DNA of 64,000 nt from Crambe crambe (lineage: Eukaryota > Porifera > Demospongiae > Poecilosclerida > Crambeidae). Positions 23,241-35,859 of this stretch are shown one piece after another. The translations under genes were made by a program, and so were the position numbers. The stretch is from positions 2,666,001 through 2,730,000 of the forward strand of contig OZ004582.1 in NCBI GenBank assembly GCA_963924555.1, written 5' to 3'. The stretch's first letter is position 1. Each line of letters opens with the position of its first letter. The notes under the pieces are model-generated. The model made no database searches, was not told the origin of the DNA, and was given only the letters and a program-made list of their open reading frames with translations.

Positions 23241-25706
23241 CAAGTGACGGCTTAGACCTGGTGGGTGGGGCCGACCGAAAAGCTCTGGACGGCCTCGTTG
23301 CCGATTACTTTGACCTGGGAAGTCAGGAACCGGATATGGATGGATGTAAGACATCCACGACCCTCCCACTTCATGAATCATTCAATTTTGTATTATAGGC
23401 GAAGATGATGAAGGCTTTGGAGGCCACCTCAGAGAATACAATGAGGATGAAGATGGTACAATAATAATAATAATAACAACAACAACTATCTATGACCACC
23501 CTGACATCTCCACATCTTCAATCAGAGCCCTTTGTTCCTTCGTCCTTGCCCTCTCCTCCAGCATCGCAGCCTTCTCATCCAGTCACAGTGTCGCAGGTCT
23601 GTCATCCTCCCACACTACTCCATCCTCTTCTCAGTCGTCCCTGCCGACTCCCAATAATAAGCGATACACCACACCACACGAGAGACTAGCAGAGTTATTC
23701 AGTAGTAATGGATGTGGCTGCAAGTTGAATAACCGAAATGGTACAAAAGGGCCATGCTACACTTTGTTTAGCTACCAACATTACCTGGATGTACTAGATC
23801 AGTGCTGCACCCTCACACGATGAGTTGGACCTAGTCGTCTTAGGGCAGATCATGGCAGGGATAGACGATAGTTGTGACGTGGGGTCAACGTCCAGGCACC
23901 CACTTACTTCTCGGCAGCGGACCAGAGTCTCCTTCTACCACCATGGAGTTAGGATCTGCAAGAAAACATTCCTAGCACTGCATGGCATTGGTAAAAATAA
24001 AAAAAAACACGACCAAAAAATTAGTTAATTGTACGCAAAGATTACTCACCGCTAACCTTTTTAGGAAAGGATAGGTTCCATGCATTGAAGTCCCATTATG
24101 CGGCAACTGGTCTCACCCTGCGACAGCATGGTAACCACCGACGGCTCCCTTACAATGCCCTTTCCTTTCGTGATGTGGAGAATGTCAAGAAGTTTTTGAA
24201 GGAATATGCAGAAAACTTCGCCATACTTCTCCCTGGCCGGATTCCTGGGTATAAGTGGGATGACCTCCAGCACTACCAAGAAGGTATCACACATTATTAA
24301 TGCAGGACTCAACAATCATGACCTTTGTACCTTTGTATCATTGACTCAGTCTGTCTGGGTGATCTACAAGCTTGCTTGTGAGGAGGCTGGCTTGCGATTT
24401 GCAGCCTACAACACTTTTTGCACACTTTGGAGGACTCTGGTACCTCATATCACTGTGATGAAACCGATGAGTGATCTTTGTTGGGTGTGCCAGCAAAATT
24501 CCACAGCTTTGATGAGGGCTGCCAACACACCTGAGAGTGAGAAGTCAGAGGTAAGAACTATTATTTTAAAGTGATAATAATAAATTATTTCCCTCAAATC
24601 AACATCAGATTGTGAAGCAAGCCCAGGACCATCTTGAGCTGGCTACCAAGGCAAGGAGCTACTTAAAACATCAGGTGGAGATATCCAAACTTGCCATCAA
24701 GCAGCTGTTCACAGACAAGGAATTGCCAGTACCCACAATCAATGCCAGCCTGTTGCCTCTTAGCCACGACGTAACAGTTCATTACAGTTTCGATATGGCA
24801 CAGCAGGTTTGAACACAGAAAATTAATACTTAGATATTTCTTTAACTGAAGTCACTACATGTACTCAGGTCCACTATCCTTATGACCCTCAGCAGCCTGG
24901 CCCCATCTATTTTCTCACGCCTCGCAAATGTGGGATCTTTGGGGTCTGTTATGAGGCTATACCTCGGCAGGTGGGCACTGATAAGAATTAAAACGACAAA
25001 GTAATCTATATCATTGTACACACCATTGATGAGGGCATGAACATTGGCAAAGGGGGCAACTGCATCATCAGTCTCCTGCATCATTTCTTGGCCACGCACA
25101 ACCTTGGGAAGGAAATCTCTGTATACATGCCGATAACTGCTCAGGCCAAAACAAAAACCGCTTCATGATGCAATATCTTGCATGGAGGGTTTTGGCTGGG
25201 CTAAATCGGCATATAGAGATTTCTTTCTCATTGTTGGGCACACCAAGTTTGCACCAGACTCGTGTTTTGGGCTGCTAAAGCAAGCTTACCGGCGGACAAA
25301 AGTGGGCTGCCTCGATGACATCGTCCGTTTGGTCGAAACCTCTGCTGTGGTGAACAATGCCCAGCTTGTTGGGAGGGAGGACGGGACGGTGATAGTACAT
25401 CAGTACAACTGGGCAGAATATTTTGCCAAGTACTTCAAACGGCAAGGGCTGGCAGGCATAAAATCCTTTCACCACTTGGTGTTTTCATGCGAGCACCCTG
25501 GACAAGTGAAAGTAAGTACATCAACTGACTCACCAGTCAAGACCCTCACCATCCTTACCAAGGAGCATATGAGTTGGACTCCATCTACATCAGAGCTCCC
25601 CCCTGAAATCAAGCCCCCTGGTCTTTCTCAAGAGCGTAAAGAGGGTGAATGTTTCAAGTCATTGCTCAAAGGCTTTTCATCGCTCGAGTCTCAAACTTTG
25701 TGGTAG
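23241..25706 (+). pseudogene. Multi-exon GQN-family (DUF7869-like) putative transposase, decayed
   Basis: Exons by splice sites and frame: to 23,345; 23,399-23,823; about 23,826-23,990; 24,065-24,283; 24,350-24,550; 24,609-24,806; 24,869-24,970; about 24,997-25,706. Order: acidic N-terminus (ADRKALDGLVADYFDLG; EDDEGFGGHL), Ser-rich part, SFYHHGVRICKKTFLALHGI, RFHALKSHYAATGLTLRQHG, AILLPGRIPGYKWDDLQ, VMKPMSDLCWVCQQNSTALM, VHYSFDMAQQV, QQPGPIYFLTPRKCGIFGV, HADNCSGQNKN, LIVGHTKFAPDSCFGLLKQ. Probable DDE-like residues are the Asp of FDMAQQ, of ADNC and of APDSCFG. I recall this family as common in invertebrates and believe it corresponds to Pfam DUF7869. Frameshifts lie near 23,822, 24,270, 25,160 (about four bases lost) and 25,217. 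No terminal repeats were found. Confidence 0.75.
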
Positions 25707-32603: not shown

Positions 32604-32993
32604 TAATATGCATTAAGGTATTTTCTGTGGAGTCGAAGACTATAAAGCAGTATTTGGTAAAAATAGCGATGCTATCTTTATCGGACCCATATCAATTCCT
32701 CCCCCATTTTTTGTTTGTTTTTACATGCCTGGATGACATGCCCCCAGATGCACCACATGGACTTACATGCCTGCCCCAGATGCACCACATGCCTTTATTT
32801 TATGTTCTATTAATGCACACAACATCCATGCATTATTATTTGTGTTGTATGTCTTGTCTGTGTTGTATGTTGTGTCGGACATGAATCCAGTCATACCTCC
32901 ACGTGGTGTCCGAAGGTAACAGCCTAGATGGCTGGCTAACATGGCTGGTATTTTAAATCACCCATTCAACAGTAGAAATACACTGATTATATG
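32604..32993. other. No recognised gene
   Basis: Spacer between the LTR and the TIR element. A short direct repeat, CCCCAGATGCACCACATG, occurs near 32,742 and 32,772. Confidence 0.4.
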
Positions 32994-33025
32994 AATTGAA
33001 GGGCTCGGAAACATAGTGGTCTAAC
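32994..33025 (+). repeat. Left terminal inverted repeat
   Basis: AATTGAAGGG, CTCGGAAA, CATAGTGGTCTAAC in order. It matches the reverse complement of 35,598-35,629 at 28 of 32 positions. Confidence 0.8.
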
Positions 33026-33306
33026 CAACACATTGTATAAAACTAGAAACAAGTAAATTAAATTTTAAAAATCACTGTAAAATCTGGTTTATGTTTTGTC
33101 AAACAATTTTATATAACATGTCAAAGCATTTTGAAATGATCAGTTAAACAATTCGTAAAATGGTCTGACCGTTTGAGGCTTCAGTATCGAACTATGTATA
33201 GTAGAAAAATGTGTATGTACGAATGAGATTTGTTTGAGTATAATGAGAGTTGTTTGAGCATAATGAGAGTAATGAGAGTTGTACATACGAATGTAAGAGA
33301 GTGAGG

Positions 33307-35370
33307 TTATTCTGTGTCAGATTGTTCAGATTCTTCACTGCACTGATCAACACTCCCAGATAGGCTCTCGTAAAAAGCATGATGCACTGGTGGCAAATAA
33401 GGTAGCAAAGAATGAAGATCATCTAATTTCCTTTGTTTTATTTTTCGAGGAGCAGTATATAGCAAAGGAATGGGTCGGGCCATAGATGCTGGTCTACCTC
33501 TCTTACGACGAAGATCAACAACTTTCCAGCTTTCCAACTCATTAAGACTGTACTTGTATGAGAATTGGTATGGTTTTTCAGAACTAACACGTATCCAGTG
33601 CATGGCTAGCCAATTGACTTTACAATGATCATTATTCCACTTCCGATTGACAATGTTAGGTTTTAGACTCTTCAATGCCACAAAATCTTTTCTGTTCATC
33701 ACGTGTACTGAAAAAGGATTTTTACGACGAGCATGTTCAACAAGTGAATACCACTCATCTGGAATGTAGATAAGACTGATGTCTTCTCTTCGCACACTCA
33801 ATACTGCCAAAATCCCTATCATTTGGAAGATACGAGTGGCCAGATATCATGAATTTTTGTTCCACTACCCTGATAGGTAGGTACATACAAGAAACAATGT
33901 GAAGCCATAAGAGAACAAGGTAAATATTTCGATTCTGGCCACCACAGCTGTCACTGTATGTGATCAATGTTGTAGTTTCTGGTTTCATTCTGCCATTTTT
34001 AAACATTTCCTCTAGGTGCCGCAAGATGCATGATCCGATTTCACATGAACCCCTGCCTGCAACTCCCTCATGCCACATGTGCATGCAAGCTCGACCACTC
34101 TCTCCCTCATGTATTCCAAGGTTATAGGTCCAGAGCTGCCGTTTATAAAAAACAATATTAGTAGAGATAGATGGGGTTGGAAGCGTCTGTTCCAAATCAA
34201 AAGTTATCATTGCAACTGTTGGATCAGACTTAGCGAGAGCCATATCTTCTTTGAGCTGCTGATAAGCTCTTTCAGCTTTTGTCTGATGCAGCATAAGCTC
34301 ACCCTTGCGCTGTGCCTTGATAGTTTCATCAGTTGCAGCTTCAATCTGTATCCTTAACTCGTCACACGTCTTGCAGGTATCCGACTTTGGTCTGCATAAG
34401 AGGATGGGATTTTTATGCACATTGCTATAGAAGTAATCACAATGAAACCTCAACAAACAAAATATGATTTTTATCATGCTGCTATGGTAGCAGATTTGTA
34501 TCATGAATAAGACGAAGAGGTTTCATTGTACTAAATTATTATTATTATTACATTCCAAAGGATAAGTTGAATGATTCATTGAATACTTTACGATAGATCC
34601 ATTCAGATACTGGTCTAAACTCCTCTCTTTCACTTTGCTCCTTATAAAGGGAATACATTTTTGACACAGATAACTCAGGACAAAGGTAGCTTCTGTTCGG
34701 GTTATCTGCACGAGAATAATGGGAATGATACTTGGGGAAACTTTCTATATGCTGTTTCACTCGGTTTATGTCAGCTTCTGAAGTTTTGTTAGCAGGTTCA
34801 TGACGACCTCGTTGATCCATATGAGGTGATCCACCTTCCCTCACTTGTGATTTTAATGCTCGATCTAAACGTCCATTCGAAATTCCATGGGTACGTAAGA
34901 AAATAGTTTTACATACGTGAATAGAAATTCCTTCACGATTCAAATAAAAAATCCTGCTGTATTGACGTCTTGATGCTGAGGAAGTATATCTTCGCTTAGC
35001 TTCCACCACCTTCACACATCCACATAGGTAACTATTCTGAGTATTGAAATCTCCAGTCGCCCAGAAACCATCAAACAAAGCTTTTCTCTGCTGCTCACTC
35101 ACTTTATCACAGCACTTTAACGTACATGAGCAATCACTGCTATCAAATTTTCGTTCACTAACCTATAAGAACATTAACGACTAAAATATGGCTCCTTGGT
35201 TAGCTAGCTAAACTTACTTGTTTCTTTTTAGCACTTTCATAGGCTTGTCCCAAGTTTCTCAAACGCTTCCTTTTGTTAGCAGCCCATCGAGATGGCGTTC
35301 TTAACCTCTTTCTGCTGGTTTTAGCAACAGTTACAGCTGATTCGGCTTCGCTTGCGCTGCTGGTCTCCAT
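33307..35370 (-). pseudogene. GQN-family (DUF7869-like) putative transposase, one frameshift
   Basis: Exon 1, 35,370-35,218, starts METSSASEAESAV and has a basic segment (WAANKRKRLRNLG), donor GTAAGTTT. Exon 2, 35,162-34,552, has a cysteine cluster (DSSDCSCTLKCCDKV), LCGCVKVVEAKRRYTSS, ICVCKT-like HVCKTIFLRTHGIS and YLCPELSVSKMYSLYKEQ. Exon 3 from 34,391 begins PKSDTCKTCDELRIQIEA and carries VAMITFDLEQTLPTPSI, TTLITYSDSCGGQNRNIY, QKFMISGHSYLPNDRDFGSI. Splice phases agree at both joins. A one-base change near 33,800 shifts into EDISLIYIPDEWYSLVEHA, open to a stop at 33,307. Expected length about 615 residues. The motifs F-D-x-E-Q, D-S-C-G-G-Q-N and G-H-S-x-x-x-N-D-R-D-F-G suggest a DDE/RNase-H-like active site. 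Apart from the frameshift it appears complete. Confidence 0.8.
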
Positions 35371-35597
35371 CTTTTAACACCAATAACACCTGATTCTCGA
35401 GCACATGTTTTTACGCACGCGCGATGTGGGTTGGACCAGTTTCGCGCTTGAAAAAACGCAATGTTTCAATGAAGCAAAGATATTCATTGGCCCTAAGATG
35501 CGTATGTATTATAATTTTGCGAATAGATGAAACAGTTAGCAAAAATTAACATGAATTAGATGATAACTCTTAGAACTCCATTTTTATGAATATGCAT

Positions 35598-35629
35598 GTT
35601 AGACCACTATGATTCTCAACCCTTCAATT
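35598..35629 (-). repeat. Right terminal inverted repeat
   Basis: GTTAGACCACTATG, ATTCTCAA, CCCTTCAATT on the plus strand; the inverted partner of 32,994-33,025. Confidence 0.8.
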
Positions 35630-35859
35630 GCAGGTTGTGTGATTCTCTTAGGAGCTAGAGTTAAAATTGACTGTCGATATTGATGAACTATACATATTCT
35701 GATTTGGTTTTTTGGTTGTTGTTTTGTTTTATTTTGCTGTTTTTTTGTGTTGTTGTTTTAATTTACTCAATTAAATTTCTCAAACCACACATGTAGCTAC
35801 ATAAGTTGCACCTGCTATGGAATAGCGACTGTTAACTATCTTATGTATTGATAACTCAG

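Follow-up and report, generated by a model that had tools for sequence, protein, structure and literature searches.

The window, a 64,000-nucleotide stretch of Crambe crambe DNA (contig OZ004582.1, positions 2,666,001 to 2,730,000), contains a DNA transposon of 2,628 bp at 32998-35625, which starts with GAAGGG and ends with CCCTTC; these boundaries were set by comparison of copies (Table 1). A sequence-only reading of this DNA had described inverted termini of 32 bases. The inverted match is indeed present (32994-33025 against 35598-35629, 28/32 identical), but the outermost AATT on each side proved to be the target duplication rather than part of a terminus. The true termini are 28 bp each and are identical at 24/28 positions.

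Between the termini lies a gene on the minus strand with three exons and two GT-AG introns (55 and 160 nt). Its splice sites were read off the sequence alone, and the introns are in phases 0 and 2; the earlier reading had noted that the splice phases agree. The further claim that the gene carries a single frameshift also held: we found one in exon 3, and the exon-3 frame is unbroken in a second copy of the element on contig C8. No other gene was recognised in the window family, in line with the earlier description of this gene as the only one in the element. Similarly, the frame encoding the DUF7869 protein was the only ATG frame of at least 150 amino acids at the loci of three related families (C, D, and E).

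Table 1. Features of the transposon, in window coordinates.
Feature	Position	Strand	Basis
Left target-site duplication, AATT	32994..32997	.	one AATT in empty sites L081-L084
Left terminal inverted repeat, 28 bp, GAAGGG...TCTAAC	32998..33025	+	inverted-end comparison
Exon 3, holds DUF7869-type region; one frameshift near 33.77 kb	33307..34391	-	reading frames and C8 copy
NDRDFG motif, third near-invariant Asp	33806..33823	-	alignment
YSDSCGGQN motif, second near-invariant Asp	33932..33958	-	alignment
MWHEG motif, near-invariant Glu between first and second Asp (Glu codon 34067-34069)	34064..34078	-	alignment
FDLEQ motif, first near-invariant Asp	34187..34201	-	alignment
Intron 2, 160 nt, GT-AG, phase 2	34392..34551	-	splice reading
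Exon 2	34552..35162	-	splice reading
Intron 1, 55 nt, GT-AG, phase 0	35163..35217	-	splice reading
Exon 1, ATG start	35218..35370	-	splice reading
Right terminal inverted repeat, 28 bp	35598..35625	-	inverted-end comparison
Right target-site duplication, AATT	35626..35629	.	copy comparison and empty sites

A DNA search of the sponge's own genome (143 Mb, 119 contigs) brought up the C8 copy along with deleted derivatives and a second family (B), 66% identical. The C8 copy is 99.9% identical to the window element, which lies on contig C3; two substitutions and a single-base indel separate the two. The gene is thus uninterrupted in at least one copy. The C3 and C8 copies have different flanks and different target duplications (AATT and ATTT, respectively), and near-identical pairs at separate sites were also found in families B and F. 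These pairs indicate recent movement in all three families, and the window element is recently mobile.

A left-end-shortened, deleted derivative of the window family was seen on contig C4 (39,409 bp; for example at L004-L006 and L009-L011). It recurs with an exact spacing of 4,265 bp in at least three head-to-tail units, and the parts scanned contained no Rfam family.

Further, more distant members were recovered when the genome was searched with the protein. The Pfam profile PF25273 (DUF7869) gave 47 matches, 46 of them above cut-off and several from one gene, while 14 control genomes gave none. Six families in addition to that of the window, seven in all (A-G), encode a DUF7869 protein in this genome. 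Their elements range from 2,423 to 4,654 bp, those of families A-F being 2.4-2.7 kb long and those of family G 4.65 kb; the termini measure ~28-38 bp. No terminus pair was found within the flanking DNA examined at six DUF7869-encoding loci (L003, L023, L024, L026, L027, and L080), of which L003 had one end only. As a separate observation, 18 of the 47 profile matches, many of them fragmentary, fall on contig C3 (9.7 of 143 Mb), which is possibly a repeat-rich region. One such fragment lies in the window itself (25114-25239, plus strand; E 7e-4, slightly below cut-off) and is probably the relic of another element.

We also searched the whole genome with a pattern of the termini, allowing up to two mismatches, and obtained 16 matches as against 7 with the reversed control. 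Ten of the 16 were at protein-encoding copies or relics and five were elsewhere; the remaining one, at C21:5001482, fell on a left-end fragment of the window family. Dispersal of the termini apart from the gene, which the sequence-only reading had named as a finding that would count against it, therefore showed no sign.

Target duplications were surveyed at those loci, part of the 47 profile matches, where flanking DNA was examined. Thirteen elements had both termini, and 12 of these were bordered by a perfect 4-bp duplication that in every case had the form A[AT][AT]T (AWWT), a class accounting for 3.2% of all 4-mers in the window. The tally was AATT 2, ATTT 4, AAAT 1, and ATAT 5. In family A the duplications were AATT (window) and ATTT (C8); family B had ATTT and AATT, family C ATTT and AAAT, family D ATAT twice, family E ATAT, and family F ATTT and ATAT. 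Family G had ATAT on contig C3; its copy on contig C1 has an altered left end and no duplication. In none of the nine elements compared did the duplication reach five bases. The search for additional copies that the earlier reading had advised thus produced more elements with both termini and a duplication of constant length.

Empty sites were identified for three insertions, namely those of the window, of C8, and of family F on contig C18. The window element is inserted in a repeat (flanks 32848-32997 and 35630-35775), and six other places in the genome span the joint of the two flanks. Of the five examined, all near-full-length repeats, four have a single AATT and the fifth is deleted across the joint. 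One empty copy is 99% identical to the flanking repeat of the window. For the C8 insertion, both relatives (2/2) have a single ATTT, and the family F insertion lies within a multicopy repeat of ~320 bp in which all three copies examined have a single ATTT. Since 12 of the 13 two-ended elements have a perfect AWWT duplication and the pre-insertion site is found elsewhere, the inverted-end architecture exceeds what would be expected by chance. The ~320-bp repeat (C18:1062240 region, L076:751-3516, with ~39 other scored places) itself has inverted ends beginning GTGGTCTGGTGACATA and copies of 90-98% identity, and it has the look of a non-autonomous transposon that was amplified recently.

To what protein family does the gene belong? 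With the spliced protein of the C8 copy as query, 627 proteins were found at E <= 0.001 among 5,966 candidates, and the family D protein found 251 among 4,472. Beetles, an aphid, a leafhopper, bivalves, and an acorn worm are named as sources among the best 120 listed of each search. Where the proteins are named at all, they are mostly "uncharacterised" or "hypothetical", and Pfam classes the domain as one of unknown function. Relatives 50-55% identical to the window protein match PF25273 above cut-off with E values down to 1e-11 (P0002, P0003, and P0009 above cut-off; P0042 and P0049 below). The proteins of families C, D, and E also exceed the cut-off (4e-22 to 8e-21), and 60 of 74 aligned members match at E <= 10. 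When the window family's exons 2 and 3 were scanned separately, neither matched PF25273 at E <= 0.1. The earlier assignment to a DUF7869-like protein is borne out through direct similarity to relatives that pass the cut-off.

Conserved residues were counted in an alignment of 234 rows, made up of listed proteins of 300-760 amino acids, some of them near-duplicates, and ten rows from the sponge's own genome (the row for L080 being empty). The three motifs in which the earlier reading had placed the catalytic acids, F-D-x-E-Q, Y-S-D-S-C-G-G-Q-N, and N-D-R-D-F-G, all carry a near-invariant aspartate: the first (FDxxQ) is kept in 229/231 rows, the second (SDxCGGQN) in 230/230, and the third (before xxFG) in 225/227. 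Near-invariance extends to a DxCxxC...H set (225/226, 225/226, 226/227, and 230/232) and to cysteines in the N-terminal half. Four comparisons of coding sequences gave pN of 0.28-0.36 against pS of 0.75-0.80. This difference indicates purifying selection on the genes, although pS is saturated.

Between the first and second aspartates, the glutamate of MWHE is kept in 230/231 rows. With it as a fourth near-invariant acid, the order becomes D-E-D-D, an order reminiscent of RNase H active sites.

Above cut-off, the window exons, their relatives, and the proteins of families C-E matched none of Pfam's DDE or RNase H families, and none was present among the 25 listed of 31 Pfam families that matched the 74 aligned members. 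Family E gave a weak match to DDE_Tnp_ISAZ013 below cut-off (E 0.052). Each profile search of solved structures returned a single weak and unrelated match (E 0.04 in one, 0.023 in the other), a scan of seven proteins against NCBIfam returned no match, PHROGs yielded weak matches alone, to families of unknown function, and scans of viral contigs found no relative. No Sola family was among the matches of the scans. In alignment A2 (74 members), five members weakly matched RFX_DNA_binding and five Pox_D5 (best E 0.0078 and 1.3e-4), and both were absent when ten alignment members were re-scanned. For the window family, Chou-Fasman propensities, a crude measure, placed strands before the first and second aspartates and a helix following the third; for family D they gave a strand before the first aspartate only and no clear helix following the third. 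Such a predicted pattern would be consistent with an RNase H-like fold for the window family, and partly so for family D, and does not amount to proof.

Relatives also occur in bacteria. A scan of prokaryote genomes gave 57 pattern matches, 11 of which (L093-L103) are bacterial insertion sequences that encode relatives; in the best segment, these share 28-41% identity with the protein of family D. Carriers include Candidatus Thiomargarita nelsonii and the isolate Desulfocicer vacuolatum DSM 3385, in which an intact frame of 657 amino acids lies on a contig of 147,846 bp. Within the order of Desulfocicer the family was found in 7 of 389 genomes, four of which were already among the carriers from the prokaryote scan; the three additional genomes (L110-L112) showed neither an end pair nor a perfect duplication. 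At three of the 11 bacterial loci there is a perfect 4-bp AWWT duplication (L094, AAAT; L096, AATT; L103, ATTT). By eye, imperfect AWWT sequences are present on both sides at L093 and L100 (one mismatch each) and L095 (two mismatches). No AWWT duplication was found at L097, L098, L099, L101, or L102, of which L098 and L099 do have inverted ends. The search for termini and duplications gave no usable result at the bacterial loci L097, L101, L102, L110-L112, and L114. At L095 (2809-4782), the bacterial element adjoins frames that by eye resemble integrase-type transposases of another insertion sequence.

The ends of animal and bacterial elements were compared for families A-F and six bacterial elements, family G being left out. 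Over 144 pairs the mean identity was 13.8/34 as compared to 9.1 in shuffles; 37 pairs had p <= 0.01 and the best reached 21/34. This similarity is supportive only, because the two ends of an element are not independent. A terminal core, CCTTAGGG, occurs at the same end offset (24-31) in family D and L094, with variants at the matching offset in family C (CTTTAGGG) and L096 (CCTTCGGG). The core is absent from families A, B, E, and F and from the bacterial element L103.

Taken at face value, a gene between inverted repeats could simply be a host gene flanked by such repeats by chance, or the two copies could be a duplication made in assembly. We regard this explanation as practically negligible: it is refuted by the empty sites and by two copies with differing flanks and duplications, and elements of like architecture exist in the other families. 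A subtler alternative is that the DUF7869 protein is a passenger or accessory protein, with a different transposase recognising the termini and mobilising the elements in trans. The lack of any DDE family match above cut-off in the Pfam scans would fit this idea. It is nevertheless very improbable, as no gene but the one for this protein was recognised in the window family, its frame is the only ATG frame of at least 150 amino acids at the loci of families C, D, and E, its coding sequences are under purifying selection, its carboxylates are near-invariant across the family, and it is found within inverted termini in seven animal families as well as in bacteria.

Another possibility accepts that these are DUF7869 transposons but assigns them to a superfamily absent from the catalogues, with the AWWT likeness to Sola2 arising by convergence. 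Consistent with this, our literature search turned up no link of DUF7869 or the GGQN motif to transposons, and the probable identity with Sola2 is argued here from described properties. On the other hand, the length and sequence of the duplication, the three aspartates, the element size, the terminus length, and the presence in bacteria all match what is described for Sola or Sola2 in the published accounts, and cataloguers would hardly be likely to miss a family so abundant (627 and 251 proteins) with such clear termini. We therefore consider an uncatalogued superfamily unlikely. We give slightly less credence still to a broader form of the idea, in which DUF7869 would define an uncatalogued superfamily of DDD transposases extending across bacteria and animals, some animal and bacterial members of which keep an A-rich tract followed by a CCTTAGGG-like core (offset 24-31 from the end) and the AWWT choice; the fourth near-invariant acid would then give a D-E-D-D order resembling that of RNase H.

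Our preferred reading, which we hold to be distinctly probable, is that the window contains a cut-and-paste DNA transposon of the autonomous type, most likely a Sola2 element of the Sola superfamily, whose sole recognised gene encodes a DUF7869 transposase. The superfamily was reportedly defined in a 2009 paper by Bao. The earlier proposal that the protein is the transposase is supported by its being the product of the only recognised gene within inverted termini, by the 4-bp duplication, by the empty sites, and by the several related families. DUF7869 is very probably a transposase of the DDD cut-and-paste type.

A plausible mechanism would run as follows. The N-terminal half of the transposase, with its conserved cysteines, may bind the inverted ends of ~28-38 bp. 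Both ends would then be cut by a DDD site in an RNase H-like domain, formed by the aspartates of FDxxQ, SDxCGGQN, and DxxFG, and joined, with a stagger of 4 bp, to an AWWT target; repair by the host would then leave the 4-bp duplication. Because its gene is frameshifted, the window copy itself would depend on enzyme supplied from another copy.

We found no paper that connects DUF7869 or the GGQN motif with a transposon, in a literature search whose scope left out most subscription papers, preprints, and Repbase; by these searches, the explicit equation of DUF7869 with an AWWT-duplicating transposase was not found in the literature covered. On the evidence presented here, hundreds of DUF7869 proteins would be transposases or transposase-derived, and labelling them as such would make for cleaner gene annotation. 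The element, recently mobile and of known ends and target, could also be tested as a tool, and its bacterial relatives, some of which have related ends, would make a simple setting in which to study the mechanism.

Among known transposons, piggyBac and Kolobok resemble these elements in having a 4-bp duplication and inverted termini. The duplication made by both is TTAA, a sequence seen in none of our 12 duplications, and neither family appeared in the Pfam scans (in one of which 25 of 31 families were listed). PF25273, which is matched by the relatives of the window protein and by families C, D, and E, is itself entered in Pfam as a domain of unknown function.

The closest agreement is with Sola. 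Sola2-type elements are described as making AT-rich 4-bp AWWT duplications (PMC3627910), and Sola elements as having a DDD transposase, 4-bp duplications, a length of mostly 2-9 kb, termini of 11-1124 bp, and a distribution over bacteria and metazoans (PMC10741241). As set against these descriptions, the elements reported here have a 4-bp target duplication in 12 of 13 cases, AWWT in all 12, and three near-invariant aspartates at the sequence level. Their inverted termini (~28-38 bp) and lengths (2,423-4,654 bp) fall inside the described ranges, and 11 bacterial loci accompany the animal ones. The particular Sola2 elements described in PMC3627910 include one 888-amino-acid transposase and elements with a 7-kb part in common, have termini of 12-21 bp, and carry Fanzor1. 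They differ in these respects from ours, which are 2.4-4.65 kb long and have longer termini of ~28-38 bp. The suggestion that the locus defines a new transposon group, if none had been described, thus most likely does not stand, since the properties match those given for Sola2 in PMC3627910 and PMC10741241. Judged by published description, the group is most likely Sola2, which has already been described.
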